Part shown: positions 7,876 through 22,123 of the stretch, in pieces | How positions within the stretch are numbered: the stretch's first letter is position 1 | Layout of the letters: each line of letters begins with the position of its first letter | DNA from: a virus | DNA: 23,664 bases | IMG/VR virus record: IMGVR_UViG_3300008012_000200 | Span: 1-23,664 of that record | Direction: 5' to 3' (one strand) | Notes under the pieces: model-generated | Told to the model about the DNA's origin: nothing | The model's input: only the letters and a program-made list of their open reading frames with translations | Databases searched by the model: none | Program-made: the position numbers and the translations under genes

Positions 7876-8092
7876 TCAAATTGAAGAAATTTGGACATCT
7901 GTTGCAAACTATATTCCCGAACGAGTAAAACTAGACTGTGCAGTTGACTACGTAAAAACTTTATTAGATCAAGGAATTGAGACGAGAGTATTAAAGGCCG
8001 CCGGCGAGCACGACGATAGACTAGAACAAGCAATTAGTATTGTTTTAGAAGACTCGTACGAGGAAGAAGAAAGTTACTTTGAAGAAGAATGA
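7853..8092 (+). CDS. small acidic conserved phage protein between uvsX and uvsY
   Basis: This encodes 79 aa if translation begins at 7853, or 75 aa from the ATG at 7865. The stop overlaps the uvsY start as ATGA at 8089-8092, and the start lies inside the end of uvsX. The protein is predicted to be helical, with a Y-I-P-E-R-V-K-L-D-C-A-V-D-Y-V-K-T-L-L motif in the first half and a strongly acidic end (E-E-E-E-S-Y-F-E-E-E). Small proteins of this kind, with a conserved 'N-Y-I-P-(D/E)-(K/R)' segment, are common next to recombination genes in marine T4-like phages, as far as I recall. Their function is unknown. Sandwiched in a translationally coupled uvsX-uvsY series, it may be a recombination accessory factor, but that is inference from position. 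Confidence 0.8.
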   Translation: MENRMTHDQIEEIWTSVANYIPERVKLDCAVDYVKTLLDQGIETRVLKAAGEHDDRLEQAISIVLEDSYEEEESYFEEE

Positions 8093-8547
8093 GTTGGTAC
8101 TCGGACATAAGCAAGGATCTTAGTAAGATTCCAAGTTGTATCCAACATTATTATAATGAGTTAGAACAGGCTCGTAAGGAAGTGGGCATATATGGCAATC
8201 TTGAAAAGAACAGTGCCGCAATGCCAGGACAAGTCGAGCATCGTTTCAATCAATTACAGGAAATAGAAGCGATATTAGAATACCTCAATATTGAAAAAAG
8301 ACAATTGAGATCTAAGTATTTTAAAAAATATCTTGAAAACTATCAACGTGCTCTCACATCTAGAGATGTTGAGAAATATGTCGACGGTGAAGCAGATGTT
8401 GTAGATCTAGATAAAATTGTACTCGAGTTTGCCTTACTAAGGAACAAATGGTTGGGCATAATCAAAGGCTTAGATCAGAAACAATGGCAACTTACCAATA
8501 TCGTTAAATTACGAGTAGCGGGAATGGAAGATGCCTCGGTCAGATAG
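8089..8547 (+). CDS. uvsY: UvsY-like recombination mediator
   Basis: UvsY loads UvsX onto gp32-coated single-stranded DNA and forms a ring-shaped oligomer. This 152-aa protein (137 aa in T4) is all-helical and charged. It has a basic R-Q-L-R-S-K-Y-F-K-K-Y-L-E-N-Y segment near residues 77-91 and the run R-A-L-T-S-R-D-V-E-K-Y-V-D-G-E. Its C-terminal section includes E-F-A-L-L-R-N-K-W-L-G-I-I-K-G-L-D-Q-K-Q-W-Q-L, which I recognise from cyanophage UvsY proteins. It starts with an ATGA overlap from the preceding gene and ends 17 nt inside the HAD gene. The family call rests on this remembered similarity plus the uvsX neighbourhood. Confidence 0.85.
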   Translation: MSWYSDISKDLSKIPSCIQHYYNELEQARKEVGIYGNLEKNSAAMPGQVEHRFNQLQEIEAILEYLNIEKRQLRSKYFKKYLENYQRALTSRDVEKYVDGEADVVDLDKIVLEFALLRNKWLGIIKGLDQKQWQLTNIVKLRVAGMEDASVR

Positions 8548-9160
8548 AATCATACTCACAGACGTCGACGGGGTGCTGTTGGAATGGGAACACCATTTCA
8601 CAAAGTGGATGTTACAACGATCGTACTTTGACGAGAACGGCAGTAGATATTTTCCACACAAATTATTGCCAGACAAACAGAACACATACGAGATGGCAGA
8701 ACGTTTTGGTGTGACCAAAGATGAGATCAGGAAGCACATCAGGGAGTTCAACAGGAGTGCTTGGATGGGCACACAAAGACCCATGCTGGAGTCACAGACT
8801 TGGGTAAAATTACTTCATGCAGAAGGATGGACGTTCATACCTATTACCTCACAGACATCTGACATACCAGCACAGCAATTAAGAAAAAAAAGGCTTGGAG
8901 AGTTGTTCGGTGAAAACGTTTTCCAAAATTACCACATTCTGGGCACGGGTGCCGACAAAGACTCAGCATTAGCGGAGTTTCACAATACCGGGCTGTATTG
9001 GGTCGAGGACAAGCCAAACAACGCTGTAGCCGGGCTCAAATACGGTTTAAAGCCTATATTAATAGACCACCCATACAATCAAGACTTTAATCATCCTGAG
9101 ATCACCAGAGTAAATAATTGGAAAGAAATACACCAAATCCTTAACAAGAAAGTACAATGA
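8531..9160 (+). CDS. HAD-family phosphatase / 5'-nucleotidase-like hydrolase
   Basis: This 209-aa protein shows the HAD superfamily signatures: motif I D11-V-D13-G-V-L near the N-terminus (nucleophile and general acid/base), motif II I-T-S around 105-107, a Lys in A-D-K-D-S near 141-145 that could serve as motif III, and motif IV V-E-D at 158-160. The cap inserted between motifs I and II is helical (residues 20-90). It most resembles the deoxy-5'-nucleotidase or polynucleotide phosphatase-like branch found in phages. The substrate cannot be read from the sequence: a nucleotide, a sugar phosphate, or a polynucleotide end are all possible. It is coupled at its end by ATGA to a kinase-nucleotidyltransferase fusion, and this pairing makes a joint role in making an activated small molecule attractive. 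The 5' end overlaps uvsY. Confidence 0.88.
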   Translation: MPRSDRIILTDVDGVLLEWEHHFTKWMLQRSYFDENGSRYFPHKLLPDKQNTYEMAERFGVTKDEIRKHIREFNRSAWMGTQRPMLESQTWVKLLHAEGWTFIPITSQTSDIPAQQLRKKRLGELFGENVFQNYHILGTGADKDSALAEFHNTGLYWVEDKPNNAVAGLKYGLKPILIDHPYNQDFNHPEITRVNNWKEIHQILNKKVQ

Positions 9161-9930
9161 AAAAAATTTTAATAATGGGACTACCCGGGGCAGGAAAATC
9201 ATACCTGGCGGGTATACTAGCACCTATGATCAATGCCGTATGGCTAAATGCAGACAGAGTTAGACAAGAGGCCAATGACTGGGATTTTTCACCGGAGGGT
9301 CGTTCTCGACAGGCAGAACGAATGCGAAGATTGTCGCAAGAGGCTTTAGACAATGGTAAACACGTGATTGCGGATTTTGTGTGTCCTACTCCCAAGACCC
9401 GAGAAGACTTTGGAGCAGATTATACAATCTGGATAGATACAATCACAGAAGGCCGGTTTGAGGACACAAACAAAATGTTCGTACCACCGGAGGAATTTGA
9501 TTTCCGGGTACCTACACAGAATGCGGAGTTGTGGGCAATAAGAAGTGCCAACGACATACAGGAATATGTGTGGGACAATCGCAAACCCACAGCACAGATG
9601 TTGGGTAGATGGCAACCATGGCATGAAGGACATCAGGCGCTGTTCGAGGAGATCATAAAAAAGACTGGGCAGGTCAACATTCAAGTAAGAGATGTACAAG
9701 GTGTAGGCGACAATCCATTTGACTTTGACACAGTGAAGAAGAACATAGATTTGGCACTAGAGAAGGACTATCGAGGAAGATATAAAGTTACACTTGTACC
9801 TAATATCACCAACATATGTTATGGTCGAGGTGTTGGATATAAAATTGAAAATATAGTACTACCAGAAAACATACAAAAAATTTCTGCTACAGACATACGT
9901 AATAGTATGAGACAAAAAGGAGAATTGTAA
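9157..9930 (+). CDS. bifunctional P-loop kinase and nucleotidyltransferase fusion
   Basis: This 257-aa protein has two enzymatic halves. Residues 1-135 are a small P-loop kinase with Walker A G-L-P-G-A-G-K-S at 8-15, a N-A-D-R-V-R segment at 31-36 and a V-I-A-D-F-V strand at 70-75, like adenylylsulfate kinase (CysC) or a similar small-metabolite kinase. Residues about 145-257 are an HIGH-superfamily nucleotidyltransferase: G-R-W-Q-P-W-H-E-G-H at 150-159 contains the H-x-G-H signature, D-N-P-F near 185-188 recalls NMN adenylyltransferases (NadM/NadR/RibL type), and I-S-A-T-D-I-R at 242-248 matches their C-terminal motif. It could phosphorylate and then nucleotidylate one substrate, as bifunctional HldE does for ADP-heptose or NadR does in NAD salvage. 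Its position ahead of many glycosyltransferases favours a donor-activation role, but NAD salvage is a serious alternative. Its stop overlaps the next ATG by one base. Confidence 0.88.
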   Translation: MKKILIMGLPGAGKSYLAGILAPMINAVWLNADRVRQEANDWDFSPEGRSRQAERMRRLSQEALDNGKHVIADFVCPTPKTREDFGADYTIWIDTITEGRFEDTNKMFVPPEEFDFRVPTQNAELWAIRSANDIQEYVWDNRKPTAQMLGRWQPWHEGHQALFEEIIKKTGQVNIQVRDVQGVGDNPFDFDTVKKNIDLALEKDYRGRYKVTLVPNITNICYGRGVGYKIENIVLPENIQKISATDIRNSMRQKGEL

Positions 9931-10610
9931 TGAGTCTACCTGTTTATGTAGGATGGGATTCTCGAGAAGATATATCTTATCAGGTTTGCGAACACTCGAT
10001 TAAAAGAAGAGATCCGGGAGCAACCGTAACTCCATTAAAACAAAAAGACATGAGAGAAACCGGTCTTTATCGAAGAGATATTGATAAACTGGCCTCGACA
10101 GAATTTACATTTACACGTTTCTTCATTCCTTATCTACAAGATTATAAGGGATGGGCCGTGTTCTGTGACTGTGACTTTGTGTGGCAAGTGCCCACAACAG
10201 AACTGGAACAGTACTGCGATGATTCCAAGGCGGTGGTATGTGTGCAACACGATTATACTCCAAAAGAAGGAATCAAAATGGACGGGCAGGTGCAGACGGT
10301 ATATCCAAGAAAGAACTGGAGTTCGATGGTACTTTGGAACTGTGCTCATCCTAAAAATAAATTGTTAACACCAGAATTATTAAATCAAGAAACCGGAGCA
10401 TTTTTACATCGTTTCCAATGGTTAGACGATTCAGAGATAGGGTCGTTACCACACGTTTACAACTGGCTGGTAGGCTGGTACAAGGAACCCAAAGACGGTG
10501 CACCAAAGATACTACACTACACCGAGGGTGGACCTTGGTTTGATGGTTATAGAGATTGTGAGTACGCCGATGTTTGGAAGAAAGAAATTATAAATTTGTT
10601 TAGTAGTTAA
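9930..10610 (+). CDS. GT8-like glycosyltransferase
   Basis: This 226-aa GT-A-type enzyme is predicted to move a sugar from a nucleotide donor using a divalent metal. The DxD motif is D80-C-D82 in V-F-C-D-C-D-F-V-W. A late His in I-L-H-Y-T-E-G-G-P-W-F (H196) corresponds to the second metal-contact region of GT8 glycogenin/LgtC-like enzymes. An N-terminal Y-V-G-W-D-S-R-E strand (6-13) fits the nucleotide-binding start of a GT-A fold. Proteins of this compact type are common in marine T4-like phages. No membrane anchor is present, so it is predicted to be cytoplasmic. It joins both neighbours by one-base TAATG overlaps, indicating co-translation with the kinase-nucleotidyltransferase and the oxygenase. 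Donor and acceptor are unknown. Confidence 0.87.
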   Translation: MSLPVYVGWDSREDISYQVCEHSIKRRDPGATVTPLKQKDMRETGLYRRDIDKLASTEFTFTRFFIPYLQDYKGWAVFCDCDFVWQVPTTELEQYCDDSKAVVCVQHDYTPKEGIKMDGQVQTVYPRKNWSSMVLWNCAHPKNKLLTPELLNQETGAFLHRFQWLDDSEIGSLPHVYNWLVGWYKEPKDGAPKILHYTEGGPWFDGYRDCEYADVWKKEIINLFSS

Positions 10611-11374
10611 TGAACTTAGATATTTTACAAAATTTAAAAAGCAACGATATTCATCAAAAACCATATCCATATTTGTATATTGAAAATGCATTACCAATAG
10701 AGACATACGAAAAATTATACGAAAATTTTCCGGTTGAAGAAATAAAAAATAAAACTAAACTGATCGAAAACCATACACATAGATTATTTTCCGATGATGT
10801 ATTGAATAAAAACATAGCAAATATTCCAAGTATATGGAAGGATTTTTTTGAGTATCATACCAGCCAAGAGTTCTATAACAAAGTGCTTAATCTATTTCCA
10901 AACTCGTTCAATGATAAATTTAAAAACCAAAAGGTGAGAATTAGAGGAACGGCAGGAGCAGATGACGACAAGATAGTAACAGATACTCAATTTGTTATAC
11001 ACAGACCACACGAAACAACAACAAGAACAACGCACCTTGACAATCCATTAGAAATGTATGCAGGGTTATTTTATCTCAGGCAGAGAGGCGATAATGGTAA
11101 AGGTGGAGAATTTCAAATATATGAAACGGATGAAATCACTCAAGTATATTTTAAGTCCGGGAGAGAAATATTAGACAATCAGCCTAGAAAACTGATCAGG
11201 ACTATTCCTTATAAAGAAAATAGTTTTGTTATGTTTATTAATACAAACAAATCCACACACGGTGTCACTCCCAGAACAAAAACATTGTACGACAGACTCA
11301 GTATAAACATTATTGCCGAAATAGAACGTAGAAAAGATAAGCCGTTGTTTATGCTTGAGGAGATTGAAAGATAA
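10610..11374 (+). CDS. 2-oxoglutarate/Fe(II)-dependent oxygenase
   Basis: This 254-aa protein carries the double-stranded beta-helix signatures of the 2OG-Fe(II) oxygenases: the iron ligands H142-x-D144 in T-H-L-D-N-P, the distal H217 in S-T-H-G-V-T, and the 2OG-binding R229 in Y-D-R-L-S-I-N. The region between has the expected strands (A-G-L-F-Y-L near 151-156, G-G-E-F near 165-168, F-V-M-F near 206-209). Such enzymes hydroxylate proline, lysine, sugars or nucleobases. Within this island a hydroxylation that prepares an attachment site for sugar, or tailoring of the sugar itself, is plausible but unproven. The gene is AT-richer than the recombination genes. Its 3' end overlaps the oppositely oriented methyltransferase gene by 26 nt. 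Confidence 0.9.
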   Translation: MNLDILQNLKSNDIHQKPYPYLYIENALPIETYEKLYENFPVEEIKNKTKLIENHTHRLFSDDVLNKNIANIPSIWKDFFEYHTSQEFYNKVLNLFPNSFNDKFKNQKVRIRGTAGADDDKIVTDTQFVIHRPHETTTRTTHLDNPLEMYAGLFYLRQRGDNGKGGEFQIYETDEITQVYFKSGREILDNQPRKLIRTIPYKENSFVMFINTNKSTHGVTPRTKTLYDRLSINIIAEIERRKDKPLFMLEEIER

Positions 11375-12047
11375 GTTCGCTCATTGCTTTTTTACGAACA
11401 CGATTGATATATATTTTATAACCTCGATCGACAAAAGTTTTACACATATTTTCCATTTTTTGTAAACCTTCTTCCTGTGTATTACCTAAATTTAACTCTA
11501 TTTCGGTTATCCAATAATTAAATTTAATTTCATTATCTAGTAGTTCTTTTGAAAAATCCTCCCATACTCCCTCGATATCTGTTTTAATAATATCCGCAGA
11601 TTCCCAACCTACTTTTTTTAAACAAGATGTTAAACTCAGACACTGTACAGATATTTCATCTCTCTCGTGTTCTTCTAAATGATTGTTATGTAACGAATAA
11701 CTTGCTCCCCATTTGTCCTTTCTTACATAGAACTTCATTATAGAATCTTCTTTTGCATATGCTATAGGAAAAAAATTCATTTGTTTTTTATTTGTCCAGT
11801 CATGATTTTGCCAATGATCTATAGCAACAGGGGATGGATCAAAAAGTTTTATTTGTAAATTTTTATTATCATCGCATAACAAATTTTCAAATTTTGTATC
11901 ATTGTTTACTCCAAAACTTAAAACAGTTGACGAATTTGCAACCACATCCTGAGGCAAGTAATAATTCCTATATTGTTTCCACGAATGCCTAGAACAATAT
12001 GTGTCTTCTATTCTACGTAATTCACTTAATATTTGTTCTTTGTTCAT
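11349..12047 (-). CDS. FkbM-like SAM-dependent methyltransferase
   Basis: This 232-aa Rossmann-fold methyltransferase has a motif I strand V-L-S-F-G-V-N-N-D at 42-50, an acidic end of the next strand L-F-D-P-S-P at 68-73 (ribose contact), and the characteristic K-T-D-I-E-G at 155-160 that marks FkbM-type enzymes. The family typically O-methylates sugars or polyketide hydroxyls, which fits a sugar-tailoring role beside glycosyltransferases. It is the last gene of a three-gene minus-strand operon (starts at 13670, 12864 and 12047) and begins 26 nt inside its upstream neighbour. Its 3' end runs into the convergent oxygenase gene. Motif I has N-N-D where G-x-G is common, as is usual in the FkbM-like phage branch, so activity is likely but not certain. 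Confidence 0.85.
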   Translation of the reverse strand: MNKEQILSELRRIEDTYCSRHSWKQYRNYYLPQDVVANSSTVLSFGVNNDTKFENLLCDDNKNLQIKLFDPSPVAIDHWQNHDWTNKKQMNFFPIAYAKEDSIMKFYVRKDKWGASYSLHNNHLEEHERDEISVQCLSLTSCLKKVGWESADIIKTDIEGVWEDFSKELLDNEIKFNYWITEIELNLGNTQEEGLQKMENMCKTFVDRGYKIYINRVRKKAMSELIFQSPQA

Positions 12048-12864
12048 ATAAGCCTTTCCATGCGGTGCCGTTTTTCATTTCTTGTAAATTAAATGATCTA
12101 TTCGCTAACGAATAAAGCCACGGTTCTCTTTCCGTATATTTAGGTGTTTCTATTTTTGTGAAGTCATGTTCTGAAATTGGTGCTCCTGCACACGCTATCG
12201 GGTCTGTGAAGATTGGTACACCGTTCCTCACACTTTCCACAACAGTTGTACTATTAAAAGTGACTGTGGCAAAAATATTTTTCCAATCTACTGGTCCTTT
12301 GTGATTGGTTGGTTTGTCAATTTTAATTGTTGCTCCGTATTGGTCTTTTTTAATTTCGGGATTGTAAGGTTTTTCCCTAACTACAATTTTTCTATCGGTA
12401 TTTTGTTTTAATGTAGCCAATGTTTTTTCTAACCAGTCATGAGCATCAAAAAAATCCATAATGGCATTTGTGGGCGGAAGTACTAAAATGGTATCTCCGT
12501 TTTTTTTCCATGGCATTAATTCTTTGTAAAAAAATTTGTTATATCTATCCGGGCTGGTGTCGTGCCCAATGTTGTAATGCGTGTGAGCATTCCAAACCAG
12601 CCTGAACCAATGTGGTGGTTTATGACAGTTCGCAAAATAACTGTGATCCATGTAAATGAAATCGTGTTTTTGTTCCTGACACCATTTGAAAACATTTCCA
12701 GATCCTGCTAATATTCCATACATGATCAAAACTTCGTTGGGAAGTTTGTTTTCGTCCATTTTTTTGAAATCGTATATAGTTTTATTGCCCGGGGATCCAG
12801 AAACAATAGCATCTACATAAGGCTGTGTCCTGGGTTTTGTGGTGTCTATTCCGGCAACTATCAT
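12022..12864 (-). CDS. KpsS/Kdo-transferase-like glycosyltransferase, paralogue A
   Basis: This 280-aa protein, predicted GT-B-like, resembles capsule polysaccharide transferases of the KpsC/KpsS (Kdo transferase) group. Its C-terminal half has T-I-L-V-L-P-P near 125-131, the basic K-I-V-V-R-E-K-P motif, V-T-F-N-S-T-T-V-V-E-S with V-P-I-F-T-D-P, and a terminal block D-F-T-K-I-E-T-P-K-Y followed by E-P-W-L-Y-S-L-A. The same blocks occur in three other genes of the window (12861-13670, 14703-15716, 17298-18170), so these four form a diverged paralogous family. An N-terminal D-H-S-Y-F segment is also shared in style with paralogue B. There is no signal peptide or membrane segment. It overlaps the downstream methyltransferase by 26 nt and the upstream paralogue by 4 nt, indicating one operon. 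Donor and acceptor are unknown. Confidence 0.8.
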   Translation of the reverse strand: MIVAGIDTTKPRTQPYVDAIVSGSPGNKTIYDFKKMDENKLPNEVLIMYGILAGSGNVFKWCQEQKHDFIYMDHSYFANCHKPPHWFRLVWNAHTHYNIGHDTSPDRYNKFFYKELMPWKKNGDTILVLPPTNAIMDFFDAHDWLEKTLATLKQNTDRKIVVREKPYNPEIKKDQYGATIKIDKPTNHKGPVDWKNIFATVTFNSTTVVESVRNGVPIFTDPIACAGAPISEHDFTKIETPKYTEREPWLYSLANRSFNLQEMKNGTAWKGLYEQRTNIK

Positions 12865-13670
12865 AACAAGTTTAAATCCTTCAATATACTCACTGCCTTT
12901 CCGTTTTCATATTCCTCGGGTGTGAACTGTTGATAGCACAAAGCATAAAGCAGTTTTGCCGGATCTTTGTATTCAGGATCTTCAACTTTTGAAAGATCGG
13001 TGTTACATATAGAAGAAGCAAAACTTTTTTCATGACAAAAAACAGGCACCCTCGTCATTAAAGATTCTATTGCACTTATACTACAACTCGTCACACAACA
13101 ATAGGCATCTTTTAGATCTTCCGATAAAGGAACTTTTGCCTCACTTGGACCGGAGGTTCCTCTACCCCTAGGTTTGACTCTAATCTTGATAGGTCTGTCC
13201 GTGTATTTTTTGATCTCATTTATAGTATCATTCAACCATGTATTATTTTTTAGATATCTATGGATTCCTGCACTACTCGGACATATCAGTATGTGTGATC
13301 CTTTTTTGCCATTATCAACAAATTTTGCATCAAAGGAATTGAATCTATCAGGGGGACAACCTTCGATATATTTTGCATGGATGTTATTCTTACTGAACCT
13401 CCAATAATGGTTATTCGGTGTTAGGTTGGCGTTGTCAAATCTTCCAAAATAAGGTGTGTCCGTAAAAAAATAATCTTGTTTGTTTTTTTCCAACTGGTGT
13501 ATAATGTCTGTGTTGAGATTTACAAGTCCCCAAAATATTGCTGGACTATTGACTGTGATTTCAGCATTGTTTACGATCTGTGTGGGCTCATGCCATGTTT
13601 TTTGTATTCCATTGAACACAGACCAACATTTGCTATTTTGGTTTTCAATAGGAGCGTATATAGACAACAT
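12861..13670 (-). CDS. KpsS/Kdo-transferase-like glycosyltransferase, paralogue B
   Basis: This 269-aa member of the four-copy family is the first gene of the leftward operon. It shares with paralogue A the segments F-F-T-D-T-P-Y-F-G (compare Y-M-D-H-S-Y-F), I-L-I-C-P-S-S, the basic I-K-I-R-V-K-P motif, S-I-S-A-I-E-S with V-P-V-F, and the closing D-L-S-K-V-E-D-P-E-Y block. It is the most changed of the four at the acceptor-side motif: T-S-C-S replaces the F/H-N-S string of A and C. That could mean altered specificity. The divergent 25-nt spacer to the gene at 13696 holds two TATAAT hexamers on this strand. It is predicted to be cytoplasmic, with an ATGA overlap to paralogue A. Confidence 0.8.
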   Translation of the reverse strand: MLSIYAPIENQNSKCWSVFNGIQKTWHEPTQIVNNAEITVNSPAIFWGLVNLNTDIIHQLEKNKQDYFFTDTPYFGRFDNANLTPNNHYWRFSKNNIHAKYIEGCPPDRFNSFDAKFVDNGKKGSHILICPSSAGIHRYLKNNTWLNDTINEIKKYTDRPIKIRVKPRGRGTSGPSEAKVPLSEDLKDAYCCVTSCSISAIESLMTRVPVFCHEKSFASSICNTDLSKVEDPEYKDPAKLLYALCYQQFTPEEYENGKAVSILKDLNLL

Positions 13671-13695
13671 AAACTAATAATTATATTATTATACA
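13671..13695. promoter_or_regulatory. compact divergent promoter region
   Basis: Only 25 nt, nearly all A/T, separate two divergent start codons. On the minus strand two TATAAT hexamers occur at 13688-13693 and 13680-13685. On the plus strand TATTAT lies at 13684-13689, 6 nt before the ATG at 13696. The region is close to palindromic. Transcripts in both directions would have almost no leader. No -35 hexamer can exist outside the flanking coding sequences. Confidence 0.5.
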
Positions 13696-14754
13696 ATGCA
13701 AGTAAAAAACATTCAAGATATTAAATGGTTTGACGAACGGTTTGGAACCATAGATCCTGTATGGGAATATGACATTCCTGGTTATGGTTCGCATAAAACT
13801 TTACCAACTTTTGTCGCAGAATTCAAAGACTGTTTTGTTCATTCCAATCCGGCATTTGTTATTACTAAAGACAAAGAAATAATCACCTCTCATGTTGGCC
13901 CGTTAAATTGGAAAACAAAAAGAAAACCTAAACACGGATGCTGGATTAATTTTGAACAAAATAATATAAATTTAAACATTCCTCAGATCACAAAACAATT
14001 TAACGAGACAAACACATACGTATGGTTACCATTCGAAACTATCAGTGCTAACAATCCATGGCATGTATGGATGGATCTTGTAAGTAAGTTTAGATTATTA
14101 GAAAAAAAATTTAATCGACCTTTCACCGATTATATTTTTATTTTGTCTCAACCTAGTACCTATTTTGAAAAAGTGGCCAAAGAATTATTCCCGAATGTAA
14201 AATATATGATCATGCCGGAGAAAACATGTTGGAAATTTAAACACCTGATTTGTCCTAGTATGAGTAATTCTAAAGACGGAGTACTTGTTCCCACGGTACC
14301 GTCTTGGATACATCATAAATTTTCAACAAAATACGAAAACAATAATCGAAAAATTTACATCGACCGAAAATACTCGCCTAGTAGAAGATTAACAAATATT
14401 GACGAGTTAATGATAGCGTTAAAAGGATTTGAAATTGTCACTATGGAGGATCTCACAATCAAACAACAAATGAATATATTTGCATCAGCATCGGTTATTG
14501 TTTCGACCCACGGAGCAGGACTAGTTAATTTATTATGGTGTAAAAAAGGAACAAAAATAATCGAGATAACACACGAAGATAGTAATAAAAAAGTCTATCC
14601 CGGACTCAGTCTACACATGGGATTACAACACAAAGTATTAATAGGAGAAAAAATTCCTATACCTATGGAATCAAAAGAAAAAAAATTACACAGATTAAAC
14701 GATTACAACGATATCAAATTGGATTCTAAAATTTTATTTTTAAATCTCAAATAA
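13696..14754 (+). CDS. GT61-like glycosyltransferase
   Basis: This 352-aa protein matches the GT61 (DUF563) family by its C-terminal half: K-I-Y-I-D-R-K-Y-S-P-S-R-R-L-T-N around 219-234, F-E-I-V-T-M-E-D-L near 245-253, I-F-A-S-A-S-V-I-V-S-T-H-G-A-G-L-V-N from 261 to 278, and G-T-K-I-I-E-I at 285-291. GT61 enzymes include plant xylosyltransferases and EOGT, and the bacterial and phage members work on glycans of unknown structure. The N-terminal half has an H-V-W-M-D segment near 123-127. There is no signal peptide, unlike the eukaryotic secretory members, so it should be cytoplasmic. It is transcribed away from paralogue B, and its last 52 nt overlap the convergent paralogue C gene. Confidence 0.88.
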   Translation: MQVKNIQDIKWFDERFGTIDPVWEYDIPGYGSHKTLPTFVAEFKDCFVHSNPAFVITKDKEIITSHVGPLNWKTKRKPKHGCWINFEQNNINLNIPQITKQFNETNTYVWLPFETISANNPWHVWMDLVSKFRLLEKKFNRPFTDYIFILSQPSTYFEKVAKELFPNVKYMIMPEKTCWKFKHLICPSMSNSKDGVLVPTVPSWIHHKFSTKYENNNRKIYIDRKYSPSRRLTNIDELMIALKGFEIVTMEDLTIKQQMNIFASASVIVSTHGAGLVNLLWCKKGTKIIEITHEDSNKKVYPGLSLHMGLQHKVLIGEKIPIPMESKEKKLHRLNDYNDIKLDSKILFLNLK

Positions 14755-15716
14755 ACTTTTCCAGACCTGATTTCGTCAACAGTCCACATCATATAACCAA
14801 TGCTGTTTAACCAATTTGTCCTATCGGGAAACTCGGGATTCTCAATTTTTGTAAGATCTGTATTTGCTACCGGGTAACAAATTGACAAATCTGATGTAAC
14901 GAAGGTCGGTATACCTCTAACACAACTATCTGTGCTTGCCGTTGAGTTATGTGTGATAACAGCATGACAATTATCTAAAACTTTTTGAAAGTGAAATCTA
15001 TAATTCTTTTTTTGGTCTCCGACGAAATGCATTTGAGGCATATCTATTTCTACATCAGCAGGAAATCTATCTTTTGCGTTATGTATTGCCTCAGTATTAT
15101 TAGGATGGGGTCTCGCAATAAATTTTCTTTTTGTTAATGGTCTTATTTTTTTGTACACGTCTAAAAACCAATCAATCGGATTTAATTCATTCATTGACCA
15201 ATTATCTTGTGGCTGTAAAACAAATACTATCGGCGCATCTGGGTTTGATGTTTTTTGCCAATCATAATTTTTAATATCAAATATTTTTTGCATGTCGTTC
15301 CATCTATCACTAGGAACATTATCTGCAAAAAATTCACCGTTTCTCATCGGTGTCCATAAACTCACTCTGTATCTGTGTTGAGGATGTCCGGAAACATTAC
15401 CAAACGATGAACAGATTCCTCCATCAAATGTTATGACAACAGATCCGTTTTTCTTGGCATTTTTGACTAATGTATGTCTACGTCCTTTTGTGTGATGTAA
15501 TTGTTTATCACCACCATACCCAAACATTACACCTATGGGTGCCGTTATTTCCATTTCACCGGCAACAGTATCACCTGTAAGAGTCTCATTTACAATTTCG
15601 ACTTCGTCTCCGGCGGCCTTTACTCCTTCGGCAAAGTCATATAAGAGTTTATAAGAATCTCCTCGTCTTCGATCTTTTACCGTTCTACGAAAAATTTGTA
15701 CTTTTAATTTTGTCAT
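14703..15716 (-). CDS. KpsS/Kdo-transferase-like glycosyltransferase, paralogue C
   Basis: At 337 aa this is the longest of the four paralogues. It has a distinctive N-terminus (R-R-T-V-K-D-R-R-R-G-D-S-Y near residues 10-22, then G-V-M-F-G-Y-G-G-D near 62-70). The middle holds I-V-F-V-L-Q-P-Q-D-N-W and F-I-A-R-P-H-P-N-N-T. The C-terminal part has V-I-T-H-N-S-T-A-S-T-D-S, G-I-P-T-F-V, D-L-T-K-I-E-N-P-E-F-P-D-R, N-W-L-N-S-I-G-Y and W-T-V-D-E-I-R-S-G-K. The R-P-H-P and H-N-S motifs are those expected of the KpsC/KpsS Kdo-transferase-like fold. It stands alone on the minus strand between two plus-strand genes, overlapping one by 52 nt at its 3' end and separated from the other by 21 nt at its start. 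This suggests it was gained or inverted independently. Confidence 0.82.
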   Translation of the reverse strand: MTKLKVQIFRRTVKDRRRGDSYKLLYDFAEGVKAAGDEVEIVNETLTGDTVAGEMEITAPIGVMFGYGGDKQLHHTKGRRHTLVKNAKKNGSVVITFDGGICSSFGNVSGHPQHRYRVSLWTPMRNGEFFADNVPSDRWNDMQKIFDIKNYDWQKTSNPDAPIVFVLQPQDNWSMNELNPIDWFLDVYKKIRPLTKRKFIARPHPNNTEAIHNAKDRFPADVEIDMPQMHFVGDQKKNYRFHFQKVLDNCHAVITHNSTASTDSCVRGIPTFVTSDLSICYPVANTDLTKIENPEFPDRTNWLNSIGYMMWTVDEIRSGKVYLRFKNKILESNLISL

Positions 15717-15722
15717 TAAATA

Positions 15723-15731
15723 TGCTATACT
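15723..15731 (+). promoter_or_regulatory. extended -10 promoter for the gene at 15738
   Basis: TG-C-TATACT forms an extended -10 element (TGnTATAAT type) within the 21-nt divergent spacer. It ends 6 nt before the ATG at 15738, which places the predicted transcription start at or next to the start codon. No Shine-Dalgarno sequence is present. Confidence 0.55.
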
Positions 15732-15737
15732 TTAATT

Positions 15738-16658
15738 ATGAAATCATTATCAGTACTTACAACTTTTCCGCCAAACAGGTGGAATGCATATGCCAAACGA
15801 ATGATAGAAAGTTTTATTCAACATTGGCCTAACGACATTAAACTTCATGTCTACTACGAACAGGAAAAACCTACTCTGGAACACGAAAAAATAGTATACC
15901 ACGATTTAGAAAAAGTATGTCCGGAACTTGTATCTTTTAAAAACAAACATAAGGATGATCCGGTGGCCAACGGAGAACTAAACAAAATACCTAACGGTGT
16001 AAGAAGACCGGACGATGCAGGTGATAAGGACCGAGGAAAAGGATCATATCTATGGGACGCTGTGCGTTTTGCTCATAAAACTTTTGCTGTTGATCATGCA
16101 ATAAAAAATTGTAATACCAATTTCGTATTATGGTTAGATGCTGACACATATACATTCAGACCGATCAGCAAAGAATTTGTTTTGGAATTGCTACCTAACG
16201 ATAAGTTGGTAAATTTTTTAGGAAGAGGCGACAAGTATCCGGAATGTGGATATGTTACATACAATACTAAACATCCAAAAATTGAAAAATTTATGTCCAC
16301 ATGGACGCAGATGTATACCTCTGGCTCTATATTCAAAGAACTTGAATGGCACGACAGTTATCTATTTTGGCAAGTGGTCAAAAGAGTGGCACCTAGTGAC
16401 GGTGTTGATATAGGTAAAGGAGCCGGTGCAAAAGGACACCATGTGTTCATTAATAGTGTATTAGGACAATATATTGATCACATGAAGGGTAAAAGAAAAA
16501 TAAAAGGTAAGAGTTCTCGATCTGATTTAAGGTCTGCTCCGGATCTGGATTACTGGAAAAATGTGGAAGCCTACGATCCGTTTGGTGGTATACAGTTCGA
16601 CCCTAAACAGGCCGCGGATATAATTAAAAAAGTAGAGAAAGGTATTAAAGGAAATTAA
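15738..16658 (+). CDS. GT-A glycosyltransferase with DxD motif
   Basis: This 306-aa protein begins with S-V-L-T-T-F-P-P-N-R-W, a typical nucleotide-sugar-binding start. It has the metal-binding D134-A-D136 in V-L-W-L-D-A-D-T-Y (129-137). Downstream, a G-R-G-D-K-Y-P-E-C-G-Y segment, an E-W-H-D-S-Y-L-F-W helix and a G-H-H-V-F-I-N segment supply candidate acceptor and base residues. It belongs to the GT8/GT-A-like enzymes seen in marine phages but is diverged from the 226-aa enzyme at 9930. Residues 65-105 are an unusually charged insert (K-H-K-D-D-P, R-R-P-D-D-A-G-D-K-D-R-G-K-G). It is followed directly by the methyltransferase gene with a one-base TAATG overlap, so the two are co-translated. 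The enzyme should be soluble; the transferred sugar is unknown. Confidence 0.85.
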   Translation: MKSLSVLTTFPPNRWNAYAKRMIESFIQHWPNDIKLHVYYEQEKPTLEHEKIVYHDLEKVCPELVSFKNKHKDDPVANGELNKIPNGVRRPDDAGDKDRGKGSYLWDAVRFAHKTFAVDHAIKNCNTNFVLWLDADTYTFRPISKEFVLELLPNDKLVNFLGRGDKYPECGYVTYNTKHPKIEKFMSTWTQMYTSGSIFKELEWHDSYLFWQVVKRVAPSDGVDIGKGAGAKGHHVFINSVLGQYIDHMKGKRKIKGKSSRSDLRSAPDLDYWKNVEAYDPFGGIQFDPKQAADIIKKVEKGIKGN

Positions 16659-17335
16659 TGAAAATAAACATTACAGCATTTAACGAACTGCTAGATAAAA
16701 AATACAAAACACAGCCTACAAAAAATCAAAGACATCATGTTATCTATGAAATTATAAAAAGATTTAAACCTAAAACAATTATAGAAACCGGAGTATACAA
16801 AGGAAAGAATGCGGCCAGCATGATAGGTAATGCATCTATCGATACCGGTAGTGATGGTTCGGGAATAACTTATTGGGGATATGATATGTTTGAAGATATC
16901 GATATGCAAACAAGTGAGTATGAGTTTCATACTAAAGGACTTAGAAAACCACAACCCACCTATGATAATGTCAGAAAATTAATTTCAAACTCGTGCCCGA
17001 AAGCAGAAATTAATCTTGTTCGAGGAAATACAAAAGACACTCTCCCTTACACAGTAGCCGACCTTGCGTTCATTGATGGCGGACATAGTATTGATACAAT
17101 ACAACGAGATTATGAAAAATTAAAAGATTGCAAGGTAATAATATTTGACGATTATTATAGAAAAGGTGATACTGGAAAATCTCCCGACACAGAAAAATTT
17201 GGTGCAAATAAATTATTGGAAAAAATAAAACACTATTGCGTTGAAACTAACGACGGTGTCACGGGCGAAGGTAAAATAAATTTAGGAATTATCATTAATG
17301 AAGATAGCATTGTATCCTCAGTATTCGGCTCTTAA
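16658..17335 (+). CDS. class I SAM-dependent methyltransferase
   Basis: This 225-aa protein has a Rossmann methyltransferase core. Motif I is T-I-I-E-T-G-V-Y-K-G-K-N-A at 40-52, the acidic strand end is Y-D-M-F-E at 75-79, and A-F-I-D-G-G-H-S at 137-144 with I-I-F-D-D-Y-Y at 161-167 is the pattern of the Methyltransf_24/TylF-MycF-like sugar O-methyltransferases, in which Asp residues bind a divalent metal. That makes methylation of a sugar hydroxyl a reasonable guess. It is translationally coupled to the GT-A gene before it, and its last 38 nt encode the start of paralogue D in another frame. It differs clearly from the FkbM-like enzyme at 11349-12047, so the island holds two unrelated methyltransferases. 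Confidence 0.87.
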   Translation: MKINITAFNELLDKKYKTQPTKNQRHHVIYEIIKRFKPKTIIETGVYKGKNAASMIGNASIDTGSDGSGITYWGYDMFEDIDMQTSEYEFHTKGLRKPQPTYDNVRKLISNSCPKAEINLVRGNTKDTLPYTVADLAFIDGGHSIDTIQRDYEKLKDCKVIIFDDYYRKGDTGKSPDTEKFGANKLLEKIKHYCVETNDGVTGEGKINLGIIINEDSIVSSVFGS

Positions 17336-18170
17336 TGCCGCTCCGGTTTTTAAATCTTTCATAGAGCACTTAAAAGATAAAAAAGAAAATTTTGTGGTGG
17401 ACAGCAACGAGGAGGCCGATGTAGCAGTTATCTGGAGTGTTCTGTGGCGAGGAAGAATGGCCGATAACAAATTAATATGGGACAGGTATAGATCGCAAGG
17501 AAAGCCTGTTGTTGTGTTAGAAGTTGGCGGGATCAAAAGAAACGTCACATGGAAGATGGGAATCAACGGAATAAACAGAGATGCCGATTTTGCCAATCAA
17601 ACTTATGATAGTAAAAGATGGAAAAAATTTGGTATTGAATTAAAATCGTGGAAGCAGACGGGGAATGTCATTGTGATATGCGGACAACATAATACCAGCC
17701 AACAATGGCAAGGGTTACCAAACATGAAACAATGGTGCGAACAAAAAATAAAAGTTATTAGACAGTATTGCAATAAACCCATTATCATTCGTCCGCACCC
17801 CAGAAACACATTTGAATTTAATGAGAAAAAATATCCGCACGTAAGAGTCGATTTACCTAGGAGAGACTATTCAACTTACGATGACACTAATTTTAAAAAG
17901 ATTTTAGGATCCACTTGGGCAGTGGTCAACCATTCCAGCAATCCTGCCATGGAGGCAGTATTCAACGGTATACCTGTGTTCGTGTCGGAATCAAGCCTAT
18001 GCCACGACGTGGGCAACACCAATGTGTCTGATATCCTGCATCCGGCCATGCCAGCGAGGCAGAACTGGGCTAATCAACTTGCCTACACTGAATGGACTAC
18101 AGAAGAGATCAGAGAGGGACTTCCGTGGGCGAGAATACGAGAAAGATTATTGGAGAAATATATTAAATGA
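17298..18170 (+). CDS. KpsS/Kdo-transferase-like glycosyltransferase, paralogue D
   Basis: This 290-aa fourth family copy is on the plus strand. Shared blocks are V-I-V-I-C-G-Q-H-N, P-I-I-I-R-P-H-P-R-N-T, A-V-V-N-H-S-S-N-P-A-M-E-A, G-I-P-V-F-V-S-E-S, and the closing N-W-A-N-Q-L-A-Y-T-E-W-T-T-E-E-I-R-E-G. It is closest in motif detail to paralogue C (R-P-H-P, A-Y-x-x-W-T-x-x-E-I). The start at 17298 lies 38 nt inside the preceding methyltransferase gene and is the only early Met, so the overlap is probably genuine. The second half, from about 17900, looks visibly less AT-rich than the first, which could reflect recombination. Its end overlaps the next gene by ATGA. It is predicted to be soluble. 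Confidence 0.82.
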   Translation: MKIALYPQYSALNAAPVFKSFIEHLKDKKENFVVDSNEEADVAVIWSVLWRGRMADNKLIWDRYRSQGKPVVVLEVGGIKRNVTWKMGINGINRDADFANQTYDSKRWKKFGIELKSWKQTGNVIVICGQHNTSQQWQGLPNMKQWCEQKIKVIRQYCNKPIIIRPHPRNTFEFNEKKYPHVRVDLPRRDYSTYDDTNFKKILGSTWAVVNHSSNPAMEAVFNGIPVFVSESSLCHDVGNTNVSDILHPAMPARQNWANQLAYTEWTTEEIREGLPWARIRERLLEKYIK

Positions 18171-18916
18171 AGGTAATAAAAATAGGACGGGGTGAGGTGG
18201 AACCAATCGAGTGGTCACAATACAAAGGAGAAACTGTTATAGTACGAACAGTTATACGTAAGGGAGAAAAGATACAGGAAAAACAATTTTACGAAGATAA
18301 AGTCAAAGCAGTACCGATAGGCAATGCTTATTGTATTGGTAACGGTCCTTCGAGAAAAAATTTCGACCTTAGTAAATTAAAAGCATCGGGACAAACATAT
18401 GGATGCAATGCATTGTATAGAGACTTTATTCCGGATTACCTGGTCAGCGTAGATGCTAAAATGTCTGCGGAGATTTCGAAAGAAAAGGTATACGAAAAAT
18501 GTTGGTGTTACGCTCCTAGTCTCGAAGTCAACAGACACAAAGGCTTAACACTGATTCCTAATAATCCCCATCTGATTAGCGGAAACCAGGCGATCTGGAT
18601 AGCAACAGTTCACGGGCATAAAAACATCTATATGTTGGGTTTTGACTTTAGAGAGTACGGCAAGGACAAACTAAACAACATCTATCAGGGTACTGAGTGT
18701 TACGGCGAAAGAAACGGAGATGCTATCTTTGTAGAATGGTTGGGACAATTTAGAAGGATAATAAAACAAAGACCGTATTGTAAGTTTACAATAGTTACAG
18801 ATCAATCGGACGAATTTTTAAGTAACTTGCAGACAGGAACAGATCTTGGCAATACAAATGTTATGGACTACAAAACTTTTGAATCTACAGTTTTAACTTC
18901 AACTGTTCAAGTTTAG
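18167..18916 (+). CDS. GT42/DUF115-like protein, candidate sialyltransferase-type transferase
   Basis: This 249-aa protein has a core beginning C-I-G-N-G-P-S-R-K-N-F-D-L-S-K-L at 56-71 and G-C-N-A-L-Y-R-D at 79-86. It continues with S-G-N-Q-A-I-W-I-A-T at 138-147 and N-I-Y-M-L-G-F-D-F-R-E-Y-G at 153-165. This order (G-N-G-P-S, then a C-N element, then S-G-x-x-A, then a G-x-D-F) is that of GT42 bacterial sialyltransferases such as Campylobacter Cst-II, and of the related DUF115/MptE-like and Maf proteins that handle nonulosonic acids. I cannot place the catalytic His of Cst-II with confidence, so the donor and even activity are uncertain. About 50 extra residues precede the core. It is coupled by ATGA to paralogue D, and its 3' end overlaps the convergent SprT-like gene by 32 nt. 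Confidence 0.72.
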   Translation: MKVIKIGRGEVEPIEWSQYKGETVIVRTVIRKGEKIQEKQFYEDKVKAVPIGNAYCIGNGPSRKNFDLSKLKASGQTYGCNALYRDFIPDYLVSVDAKMSAEISKEKVYEKCWCYAPSLEVNRHKGLTLIPNNPHLISGNQAIWIATVHGHKNIYMLGFDFREYGKDKLNNIYQGTECYGERNGDAIFVEWLGQFRRIIKQRPYCKFTIVTDQSDEFLSNLQTGTDLGNTNVMDYKTFESTVLTSTVQV

Positions 18917-19352
18917 GTCGCCAACTATAAAAATTAGCATTGTGATTAGAATAAGGATCTTTCATTACAGTCATCTGCCACAGATGAACCATCTCGTGTA
19001 TTAATGTTTCAACAAAATATTTCCAGGTAGGAAATTTTTTCCTCAATTGGATGTAAAAATCTAAAGTGTGATTGTGGTATGGTATTATATCTTGTCTGCA
19101 GGTACCTTTTTTACTATACCTGTTATCCCAGGTTGCCACACACTGTCCCCAATAACCAGGGCAGGTTGTTATATAGATAGGAACACTTGGTAATTTACTA
19201 TCAAAAATAGATCTGTTGAAAATTCTAAACCAAGTTTCCGCAATAGCCTCTGATGGGTAAAAATCCTTAATTTTTTTTCTTTTTCTCAGTGCGTTTTCAA
19301 CTCGTAATTTAACTTTTTTTGAAAGACGCTTTGCTTGTATTTTTTTACTCAT
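18885..19352 (-). CDS. SprT-like zinc metalloprotease-type protein
   Basis: This 155-aa protein is very basic at its N-terminus. It carries the zincin motif H-E-M-V-H at 119-123 in E-T-L-I-H-E-M-V-H-L-W-Q, with H137 in S-N-H-N-A-N-F as probable third zinc ligand. The upstream I-A-E-T-W-F-R-I-F-N segment (37-46) and the W-G-Q-C-V-A segment (68-73) are typical of SprT-family proteins, which include human SPRTN, a DNA-protein crosslink protease. Phage copies are common in marine T4-like genomes, but their targets are not known. A role in clearing proteins from DNA would fit the neighbouring repair genes better than the sugar genes. It reads toward the sugar island, and its start abuts a promoter for the divergent 411-aa gene. 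Confidence 0.87.
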   Translation of the reverse strand: MSKKIQAKRLSKKVKLRVENALRKRKKIKDFYPSEAIAETWFRIFNRSIFDSKLPSVPIYITTCPGYWGQCVATWDNRYSKKGTCRQDIIPYHNHTLDFYIQLRKKFPTWKYFVETLIHEMVHLWQMTVMKDPYSNHNANFYSWRPKLEQLKLKL

Positions 19353-19409: not shown

Positions 19410-20645
19410 ATGACAAATAAAACTATGCTGAAAACGGTCGAAGAAGCACTAGAAATAGTAGCATATAACGACAAACTATGTCCAGAATCTCTAAAATCAA
19501 AAGCATTATCGTTGGCATTACAGGAAAGTGCATGGACCGAAAAACAAGCAAAATTAGCCATGCATATTTTAAAATCTTCTTTGTCTTTTGTTGGGGAACA
19601 CCTAGGCATGGAGTTCGCCTTAGAACTTAATAATCTTTTGCAAGATCCTGTTTATAGAAATAAATTCAGAAAAATTGATTATAACAAAATATTAACTCTC
19701 GAAGAGAGGGGTGGCGTGACTGTCATTTATTTTAAGTTTCCATACAACGAAAGAATTGTTAAACAACTTAGATGCCTCAAGAAAAAATACGGCGATTTTT
19801 TAATGGCATTATTTAATGACGAAGAAAAAGCATGGATGTTTGATTACAGTGATGTAAATTTATATTGGTTAACACTATTGGCAATAAGACATGATTTTGA
19901 AATAAAAGATCAAAGAATTTTAGACTTGTTTGAAAAAATTAGAAATAAAAAAAGAAATTACAAAAAATCTATTATCGAAATAAAAGAAGATAATATTATT
20001 TTTAAAAACACATCCGATACGTTAAGAGATAATTTTAATTCAACGACCGCCGATATGAAATTTTTATGTAAAATTGATTTTTTAAAAAGATATCAACTTC
20101 CAATACAACATTCTCATAATTTAAAAACATTATCTGAGAAAATTGCATATTCGGAGAAAAATGATTTTTTTGTTTCAAAGAAAGATTATTCAAAAGTAGA
20201 ATTTCTTAATGCTATGCACGAATTAAATTTATTTCCTGCTGTATGTACAGGATACGGACTTGTACTCTCGAGCGACTTAACAGAAATTTACACCTGGTTA
20301 TTAGCATTTGAGAAAGCAAATATTACCAAAAATGAAATATGCTTGACTCCTAATTTTTTAACACACCGTTTGAGAGAGTACGATCATGACGAACAATCAG
20401 ATTTACTTGAAAAAATAAAACAGTTATCTTCAAAATATAATGCAGTACCAAATAAAAAAACAAAAATAGTCTTCATGGGTCAGTCTATTGCTACAAATAT
20501 TAGACCTATGTTTAATAAAATACAATGTTCTTTTAACTTTACCGATATAAGTTATTACATGTCTGGTTCAGATTTTGTTAATAGTGTGGTTGAAAATCTT
20601 CCAAAAAGATTGTATTATTCTAGTAAAGAACCACAAAATATATAA
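19410..20645 (+). CDS. unrecognised AT-rich 411-aa phage protein upstream of uvsW
   Basis: I do not recognise this 411-aa protein. Residues 1-85 are helical (S-L-K-S-K-A-L-S-L-A-L and A-K-L-A-M-H-I-L-K). Around 100-160 comes a mixed strand/helix block: V-T-V-I-Y-F-K-F-P-Y-N-E-R-I-V-K-Q-L, then W-M-F-D-Y and L-L-A-I-R-H-D-F-E-I. This faintly resembles the small HARP-type domain of annealing helicases, where a strand, an 'F-P-Y' turn and a later Trp are spaced alike; this is a weak comparison. The C-terminal half has V-C-T-G-Y-G-L-V-L near 284-292 and ends in a strand-rich stretch (K-T-K-I-V-F-M-G). No nucleotide-binding or catalytic motif is visible. The DNA is strikingly AT-rich with long A-runs. 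It has its own promoter and ends 8 nt before uvsW, so a link to that helicase is conceivable. Confidence 0.8.
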   Translation: MTNKTMLKTVEEALEIVAYNDKLCPESLKSKALSLALQESAWTEKQAKLAMHILKSSLSFVGEHLGMEFALELNNLLQDPVYRNKFRKIDYNKILTLEERGGVTVIYFKFPYNERIVKQLRCLKKKYGDFLMALFNDEEKAWMFDYSDVNLYWLTLLAIRHDFEIKDQRILDLFEKIRNKKRNYKKSIIEIKEDNIIFKNTSDTLRDNFNSTTADMKFLCKIDFLKRYQLPIQHSHNLKTLSEKIAYSEKNDFFVSKKDYSKVEFLNAMHELNLFPAVCTGYGLVLSSDLTEIYTWLLAFEKANITKNEICLTPNFLTHRLREYDHDEQSDLLEKIKQLSSKYNAVPNKKTKIVFMGQSIATNIRPMFNKIQCSFNFTDISYYMSGSDFVNSVVENLPKRLYYSSKEPQNI

Positions 20646-20653: not shown

Positions 20654-22123
20654 ATGAGTTCGTGTAAATTGGTAATCAAGGATGAGGTGAATGTGAAATT
20701 TGAAGACCTATCTCTTGAGCATAGAAAAAAACTTCATTCAAAATTTAAATTTGAAATACCGTATGCTCGTCACTTACCTGCTGTAAAGTTGGGAAGATGG
20801 GACGGGAAGATTAGTTTTTTTGGTCTGGGAGGCACCACTTATCTGGCGCTGGTCCCGGAAGTATTACCAATACTAGAAAATGCCGGTGTGTATGTTGAAC
20901 TACTTGATCAGCGAACACCACACAACTTTGAATTTAAATTAATAGATAAAAATTATCTATCAGATATTAAATGGCCGGAGGCGCATCCGATGGCCGGACA
21001 ATCTATAGAACTACGTGACTATCAGGTGCAGACCATCAACAAATTCCTAGAGCATCCTCAATGCATACAGGAGATCGCCACGGGAGCAGGAAAGACCATC
21101 ATCACGGCAACATTATGTAAACTGGTTGAAAACTATGGAAGGACATTGACAATTGTTCCAAACAAAAGTCTCGTCACGCAGACAGAGGACGATTTTATTA
21201 CGTGTAATCTCGACGTGGGAGTTTATTATGGTGACAGGAAAGAGTTGGGTCGACAGAACACGATCGCCACATGGCAGTCGTTGAATGTGTTAGAGAAAAA
21301 AAGCAAGGACGAGGATTCGGAGGCATTCGCAGAAGCGATAAAGAACATCAACACAGTGATTGTTGATGAGGTGCACATGGCCAAAGCCGACGTACTAAAA
21401 AGAATGTTGACCGGACCATTTGCCCACTGTGGCATACGTTGGGGACTGACGGGGACTGTGCCCAAAGCAAATTTTGAATTCTACGGATTGCGATGTTCCA
21501 TCGGGGAAGTGACCAACCGTATCGCCGCAAAAGAACTACAGGACAAAGGTGTACTGGCACAGTGTGATGTCAACATTCTGCAGACACAGGATCATCCAGC
21601 ATTTAAAAACTATCAAGAAGAATTAAAATGGTTGACCACAGACGAGACCAGAATGGAATGGATCGCAGGAACCATTAAAAGCATAGCAACATCAGGCAAC
21701 ACACTGATACTTGTGGATAGGATATCCGCTGGAGAGATTTTAGAAAAGAAACTAAAGGATTCAACATTCATTTCAGGATCAACCAAAAACACAGACCGAA
21801 AGGAGCACTACGATGAAGTATCTACTGCAACAAATAAGATTATTATTGCCACATATGGAGTGGCCTCTGTGGGCATTAATATTCCTCGTATTTTTAATCT
21901 TGTTCTCATAGAACCCGGCAAGTCATTTGTGCGAGTGATTCAATCTATAGGACGTGGTATTAGGAAGGCCGAGGATAAAGATAGCGTACAGATATGGGAC
22001 ATTACCAGCAGTTGCAAGTTTGCAAAAAGACACTTAACAGAAAGAAAAAAGTTTTACAAAGAGGCCAATTATCCGTATAATATAGAGAAGATAGAATATG
22101 AAAATCCTTACACTAGAAAATAG
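20654..22123 (+). CDS. uvsW: UvsW-like superfamily 2 helicase
   Basis: UvsW unwinds branched DNA and R-loops, and in T4 moves replication from origin-dependent to recombination-dependent initiation. The 489-aa protein (503 aa in T4) has an N-terminal substrate-recognition domain (about 1-110) with a K-L-G-R-W-D-G-K-I-S-F-F block at 45-56. The helicase core follows: Q motif region R-D-Y-Q at 121-124, Walker A T-G-A-G-K-T at 143-148, motif II D-E-V-H at 238-241, motif III L-T-G-T at 265-268, motif V around 400-410, and motif VI Q-S-I-G-R-G-I-R at 430-437. All catalytic residues are present. The first third is AT-richer than the helicase core. A TATAAT hexamer stands 7 nt upstream. Its last 26 nt overlap the following gene. 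Confidence 0.96.
   Translation: MSSCKLVIKDEVNVKFEDLSLEHRKKLHSKFKFEIPYARHLPAVKLGRWDGKISFFGLGGTTYLALVPEVLPILENAGVYVELLDQRTPHNFEFKLIDKNYLSDIKWPEAHPMAGQSIELRDYQVQTINKFLEHPQCIQEIATGAGKTIITATLCKLVENYGRTLTIVPNKSLVTQTEDDFITCNLDVGVYYGDRKELGRQNTIATWQSLNVLEKKSKDEDSEAFAEAIKNINTVIVDEVHMAKADVLKRMLTGPFAHCGIRWGLTGTVPKANFEFYGLRCSIGEVTNRIAAKELQDKGVLAQCDVNILQTQDHPAFKNYQEELKWLTTDETRMEWIAGTIKSIATSGNTLILVDRISAGEILEKKLKDSTFISGSTKNTDRKEHYDEVSTATNKIIIATYGVASVGINIPRIFNLVLIEPGKSFVRVIQSIGRGIRKAEDKDSVQIWDITSSCKFAKRHLTERKKFYKEANYPYNIEKIEYENPYTRK

Follow-up and report, generated by a model that had tools for sequence, protein, structure and literature searches.

Between the recombination genes uvsY and uvsW, the virus record IMGVR_UViG_3300008012_000200 of IMG/VR carries a block of 13 intact and complete open reading frames (ORFs; positions 8531-18916), among which are eight glycosyltransferases and a set of tailoring enzymes. 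The stretch analysed, referred to here as the window, covers positions 1 to 23,664 of that record (23.7 kb). The block is a real, selected pathway, since dozens of related phages carry it at the same place in the genome, and its core, a GT8-type transferase (GTA226) accompanied by paralogous transferases of one family (Kps), moves as a cassette into unrelated phages. We infer that the enzymes work on a single chain, and the block is best read as a phage-encoded glycan assembly line for which a virion protein (tail or adhesin) is the most likely acceptor, at just short of an even chance. Phage glycan clusters are already known; what is new here is a place between uvsY and uvsW that stays constant across an uncultured clade, a paralogous family with the fold of 3-deoxy-D-manno-oct-2-ulosonic acid (Kdo) transferases as the core, the recurrence of that core in cultured phages, and a link between sulfotransferases and the kinase-nucleotidyltransferase of the block (KinNT).

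A resident block between uvsY and uvsW

Gene order in the window runs from structural genes through TerL, gp32, UvsX, a 79-aa ORF and UvsY to the island, followed by a SprT-like protease, a 411-aa ORF and UvsW; the island genes are densely packed, several of them overlapping by 1-4 nt (Table 1). A sequence-only reading of this stretch had described an enzyme island at this place, and its ORFs are all present, with flanking genes that match PHROG 231 and PHROG 16. The island end, which that reading had set at 19352, had to be moved, the last 468 bases (18885-19352) coding for a SprT-like metalloprotease and not for a glycan enzyme.

Conservation was followed in two sets of loci. The first derives from the top 80 relatives of UvsW in IMG/VR (84-92% identical), a fetch blind to the island genes whose counts take only loci with enough upstream sequence; the second, of 72 loci, was fetched with GTA226 and is unbiased for all other island genes. 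In the uvsY-uvsW slot of the UvsW-fetched loci the genes of the GT42-like enzyme and of Kps290 are present in 32/32, that of GTA306 in 26/26 and that of Kps337 in 24/24, a fixed content that excludes chance clustering. The common order in relatives is uvsY-HAD-(KinNT)-GTA226-variable-Kps269-GT61-Kps280-Kps337-variable-GTA306-Kps290-GT42-SprT-o411-uvsW, with respect to which Kps280 and Kps337 of the window are inverted. Kps paralogues were found near GTA226 in all 26 remoter GTA226-fetched loci (58-66% identity), most of which have uvsX/uvsY or uvsW in reach, and the HAD gene, present in 53 of the 72 loci, is frequent without being universal. Pairwise dN/dS (NG86) was estimated for ten island families, whose medians of 0.03-0.10 compare with 0.035-0.037 in uvsX and uvsW, and median protein identity is 41-64% for most island transferases and 80% for GTA226, against 86% for uvsW and 90% for uvsX; low dN/dS together with greater protein divergence indicates that selection acts on the island, although its clock runs faster than that of the replication genes. 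The claim of one coherent glycan pathway, for which a comparison of uvsY-uvsW intervals had been suggested, is thus supported: the genes co-occur in fixed order, no scattering was seen, selection is purifying, and the core is met again, as a cassette, in unrelated phages.

The word "inserted", used earlier for the block, is misleading, as it is resident in the slot throughout the phage clade, though absent there in the nearest isolates. TerL and UvsW of the window are 50-55% identical to those of jumbo phages of Pseudomonas (PA5oct group) and Rhizobiales (Phosso, Atu_ph07), and the corresponding interval in Phosso, Atu_ph07 and PA5oct gave zero matches to the island profiles and holds zero transferase annotations. 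A near-identity DNA search of named phage records with the window likewise returned zero matches.

On the right flank, the SprT-like metalloprotease gene (minus strand), flanked by the GT42-like gene and the 411-aa ORF, is found in 40/40 loci at about 47% identity; the 411-aa ORF (19410-20645), directly upstream of uvsW and without a family match, is kept in relatives at about 30% identity, against 86% for uvsW. The T4 late-promoter motif TATAAATA was sought in the window and not found, promoter and terminator scans gave counts no higher than in shuffles, an Rfam search yielded zero matches and a tRNA search none.

Table 1. Genes of the glycan island and its flanks in the window
Feature	Position	Strand	Evidence and remarks
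uvsY	8089..8547	+	PHROG 231, E 3e-16; left slot boundary; 17-nt overlap with HAD
HAD-family phosphatase, NT5C-like	8531..9160	+	weak Pfam; PHROG 420, E 1.5e-28
KinNT, APS-kinase-like P-loop kinase fused to NMNAT-type HIGH nucleotidyltransferase	9157..9930	+	APS_kinase/AAA_33; PHROG 10255, E 1e-59; optional
GTA226, GT8-fold glycosyltransferase, core gene	9930..10610	+	structure model; DxD D80/D82 invariant
2OG-Fe(II) oxygenase, variable tailoring gene	10610..11374	+	PF13640
FkbM methyltransferase, variable tailoring gene	11349..12047	-	PF05050, slightly below cut-off
Kps280, Kdo-transferase-like GT-B family paralogue	12022..12864	-	profile-profile comparison
Kps269, same GT-B family as Kps280	12861..13670	-	model pLDDT 91; best PDB matches KpsC/WbbB/KrkA
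GT61 glycosyltransferase	13696..14754	+	PF04577, E 4.9e-24
Kps337, same GT-B family as Kps269/Kps280	14703..15716	-	profile-profile comparison
GTA306, orphan putative GT-A transferase, core gene	15738..16658	+	DAD motif
Methyltransf_24 methyltransferase, variable tailoring gene	16658..17335	+	PF13578
Kps290, same GT-B family as other Kps proteins	17298..18170	+	profile-profile comparison
GT42/DUF115-like transferase, 249 aa	18167..18916	+	GT42 sialyltransferase profile match, E 2.7e-4; weak DUF115/MptE
SprT-like metalloprotease	18885..19352	-	PF10263; right boundary; not a glycan gene
uvsW helicase	20654..22123	+	PHROG 16, E 4e-78; right flank

The transferase core and its recurrence in other phages

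The four Kps proteins have no Pfam match above chance. Profile-profile comparison places Kps269, Kps280, Kps290 and Kps337 in one family (E 7e-34, 5e-28 and 7e-62), and since PDB searches by sequence profile with the Kps proteins, as with GTA306, gave no credible match, a structure model was needed. The 26 best PDB matches of the AlphaFold model of Kps269 (predicted local distance difference test, pLDDT, 91) are all retaining beta-Kdo transferases (KpsC, WbbB, KrkA); against KpsC, Foldseek gave an E-value of 3.8e-8 and a template modelling (TM) score of about 0.5, a domain-level likeness in fold and domain arrangement that makes Kdo-transferase activity only putative. The model suggests that the four paralogues share their fold with KpsC/KpsS, WbbB and KrkA, from which they differ in having neither a Pfam match nor a sequence-level match to a Kdo transferase in PDB. 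Their earlier description as "KpsS-like" is revised to paralogues of one GT-B family. Of the two proteins first called GT-A, that of 226 aa is assigned the GT8 fold by a model (pLDDT 76) matching the GT8-type enzymes WbbM, GlyE, LgtC and glycogenin, while that of 306 aa is a sequence orphan with a DAD motif, for which the GT-A assignment is putative. The GT42/DUF115-like call is borne out by the GT42 sialyltransferase match, and the classes HAD, kinase-nucleotidyltransferase, 2-oxoglutarate (2OG) oxygenase, GT61 and two methyltransferases by Pfam or PHROG matches. The conserved core would comprise GTA226 and two to five paralogous Kps GT-B transferases of predicted retaining beta-Kdo-transferase fold, with GTA306, GT61 and the GT42-like enzyme. 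Of 36 records with island relatives that were searched for a CMP-sugar synthetase (PF02348), one gave a clear match, so that a supply of CMP-Kdo of their own is not generally encoded on island-bearing contigs.

Two isolates, Mosig with host HTCC1062 and CcrSC with host CB15, show how the core is arranged elsewhere. Pelagimyophage transferases lie in the host recognition cluster and elsewhere (PMC7029224), and in the Pelagibacter phage Mosig (EXVC030M) one run reads transferase-Kps-sulfotransferase-Kps-GTA226-GTA306-two methyltransferases, with a GT42-like gene elsewhere in the genome. The run resembles the island in joining GTA226, two Kps and a GTA306 homologue; Mosig, however, belongs to another phage lineage, its cassette lies near the genes of ribonucleotide reductase and RuvC instead of between uvsY and uvsW, and the island has more Kps copies, plus GT61 and the GT42-like gene in the same block. 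In the Caulobacter phage CcrSC (Bertelyvirus) the run DUF115-like-Kps-Kps-GTA226-methyltransferase-GT9-like stands directly between tail genes and endolysin; it shares with the island the DUF115/GT42-like gene, two Kps, GTA226 and a methyltransferase, but has six genes only, directly behind the tail genes of an unrelated phage. The Kps and GTA226 families are nearly absent from 147 SAR11 genomes, and the transferases are therefore not recent captures from SAR11. Cyanophage clusters of the P-SSM2 type, for lipopolysaccharide (LPS) or capsule (PMC7824862), have in common with the island clustered transferases, a HIGH nucleotidyltransferase, HAD, 2OG and methyltransferase genes, but rest on epimerases and PfkB kinases, both absent from the window by Pfam; the kinase of the window is of the adenosine 5'-phosphosulfate (APS) kinase type. 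In another cyanophage, S-SCSM2R (L252, 9815-17074), a GTA226 homologue lies near KdsA, KdsB, a glycine amidinotransferase and two 2OG oxygenases.

Candidate acceptors of the proposed glycan

In the proposed pathway an oligosaccharide would be built stepwise in the cytoplasm from nucleotide sugars of the host (or partly of the phage). A short chain would be laid down by GTA226 and the Kps paralogues and then extended or capped by GT61, GTA306 and the GT42-like enzyme, and its decoration would be varied between phages by 2OG oxygenase, methyltransferases, sulfotransferase, asparagine-synthase-type amidotransferase, epimerase and an optional KinNT. The earlier view that all enzymes are cytoplasmic fits the finding that none of the island proteins has a hydrophobic stretch of the membrane-helix type. 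Of the three targets that had been left open (virion protein, DNA and host surface), DNA is unlikely and the other two remain.

A virion protein is given a modest preference over the host surface, which is ranked close behind, because soluble enzymes would build the chain de novo without flippase or initiating transferase (the two isolate genomes that carry the cassette and 11 contigs of the lineage are free of flippase and initiating phosphoglycosyltransferase families) and because CcrSC has its cassette in the tail region. Several points weigh against this choice. Soluble transferases, aided by flippases of the host, also assemble LPS and capsule at the inner membrane; as they can serve these polymers and host lipid-linked intermediates, the missing membrane proteins are weak evidence. 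The block of the window adjoins recombination genes and not tail genes, close homologues of KinNT in SAR11 (66-74% identical) lie beside epimerases, GT2 and surface-polysaccharide genes, and the pelagimyophage transferases have been published as O-chain modification (PMC7029224). The virion protein is thus an inferred acceptor.

A serious though lesser possibility is that the same assembly line instead acts on a polysaccharide of the host surface (LPS O-chain or capsule), remodelled during infection to exclude superinfecting phages or to ease the release of virions. The Kps fold relatives KpsC and WbbB make capsule and LPS, KinNT is shared with SAR11, where it has the polysaccharide neighbours just described, and published work interprets the clusters of pelagimyophages and jumbo cyanophages as modifying the O-chain or the capsule (PMC7029224, PMC7824862). 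Eight transferases, however, far exceed the number in known serotype-converting cassettes, and whereas a serotype-conversion (gtr) cassette has a membrane flippase and a membrane glucosyltransferase, the block encodes neither a flippase nor an initiating transferase, nor any membrane protein; the place of the CcrSC cassette in a tail/lysis region and the near absence of Kps and GTA226 from the SAR11 genomes also speak against a host target.

Phage transferases glycosylate DNA bases in T4 and others, and DNA-metabolism genes surround the island, but glycosylation of phage DNA bases by this pathway is very unlikely, because T4-type DNA glucosylation needs a base hydroxymethylase of the thymidylate-synthase type (PF00303), which neither the records of Mosig and CcrSC nor the 11 lineage contigs, themselves fragments, contain; moreover, the island proteins have no Pfam or PHROG match to DNA glucosyltransferases, and the 2OG gene, which matches PF13640, belongs to the variable genes. 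Just as improbable is a soluble secondary metabolite or glycoconjugate in place of polymer decoration, a product proposed for a second cyanophage cluster (PMC7824862): 2OG oxygenase, FkbM and AsnB-type enzymes are known in secondary metabolism too, but here the transferases are the conserved core and the metabolite-type genes the variable ones. Least probable of all is a pile of unrelated morons in a tolerant slot, which the varying cargo between core genes, the mixed strands and the two inverted window genes might suggest, but which the constant core order in dozens of loci and the joint travel of the core to unrelated phages contradict.

Tailoring genes and the kinase-nucleotidyltransferase

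The exchangeable part of the pathway consists of the tailoring genes (2OG, FkbM, Methyltransf_24). The cargo that varies between related phages is of a kind typical of glycan pathways and includes 2OG oxygenase, FkbM, other methyltransferases, an asparagine-synthase type (28 ORFs in one cluster), an epimerase (14 ORFs), sulfotransferase, radical SAM and DUF6071. One relative of the phage also has a SufB/D-core protein (iron-sulfur assembly) inside its glycan island (L103:12901-14334).

The N-terminal half of KinNT resembles APS kinase (profile E 3e-11), although its single-sequence match is weak and far below the curated cut-off, and the C-terminal half resembles nicotinamide mononucleotide (NMN) adenylyltransferase (E 4e-7). 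The kinase half is like that of 3'-phosphoadenosine 5'-phosphosulfate (PAPS) synthetase, which joins APS kinase to ATP sulfurylase, but no ATP sulfurylase domain was found in KinNT, where the NMN-adenylyltransferase-like half stands instead. KinNT as a constant island gene was rejected as an artefact of fetching loci by KinNT itself (ascertainment bias); it is present in 7/72 loci of the unbiased GTA226 fetch and is thus optional. Of the donor activation first ascribed to it, the kinase-nucleotidyltransferase class stands, but the gene is not constant, and its context suggests sulfate and not a sugar donor.

In other phages, in Bradyrhizobium and in some SAR11, 36 KinNT homologues have a sulfotransferase no more than 1.5 kb away; of the 37 sulfotransferase-KinNT pairs, 34 have the sulfotransferase upstream and on the strand of KinNT, 11 of these with a 4-nt overlap, counts that include many related phage loci and are not independent events. 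Half of 30 other-phage contigs with a KinNT homologue hold a sulfotransferase above the family cut-off, and among the 147 SAR11 genomes one is present in 55/78 with KinNT (fused genes and genes split into two adjacent ORFs being both counted) against 21/69 without it (p 1e-6, genome completeness not controlled). Because sulfotransferase genes stand directly upstream of its homologues and co-occur with it in SAR11, KinNT in general is slightly favoured as an activator of sulfate, and less so in this phage, where the window has no sulfotransferase and the two genes are not tightly co-occurring in the clade. HldE-like heptose activation is a minor alternative: a SIS isomerase adjoins KinNT in five SAR11 loci, but the HldE-type heptose kinase/adenylyltransferase has a PfkB-type kinase, whereas that of KinNT is P-loop APS-kinase-like.

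The gene also varies in form and surroundings. In dozens of SAR11 genomes the halves are two adjacent ORFs (e.g. G059:C1:35881-36644), and in about 18 they are fused. Tandem KinNT matches occur in two loci (L113:9037-10834 and L261), the first L113 copy being without the nucleotidyltransferase half. In Bradyrhizobium (L212, L215, L216, L219, L233, L236) two long tandem sulfotransferase-domain ORFs (641-652 and 659 aa) lie directly upstream of the KinNT homologue, one of them being split in L212, and in other phages (L111-L160) the neighbours include RCC1-repeat proteins, a T4 neck protein and UDP-galactopyranose mutase.

It is conceivable, though unlikely, that this marine phage clade makes an ulosonic-acid-type virion glycan of its own through paralogous Kdo-fold transferases, some members adding sulfate that is activated by KinNT, a compact and hitherto unnamed enzyme shared with SAR11 bacteria. 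In a large clade of uncultured marine phages a glycan pathway of several enzymes is thus a resident part of the genome, kept by selection. Its core is also present in phages whose hosts, Pelagibacter and Caulobacter, are in culture, so that mass spectrometry could identify the acceptor there; KinNT, compact and widespread in SAR11, may provide activated sulfate for the sulfation of surfaces or virions.

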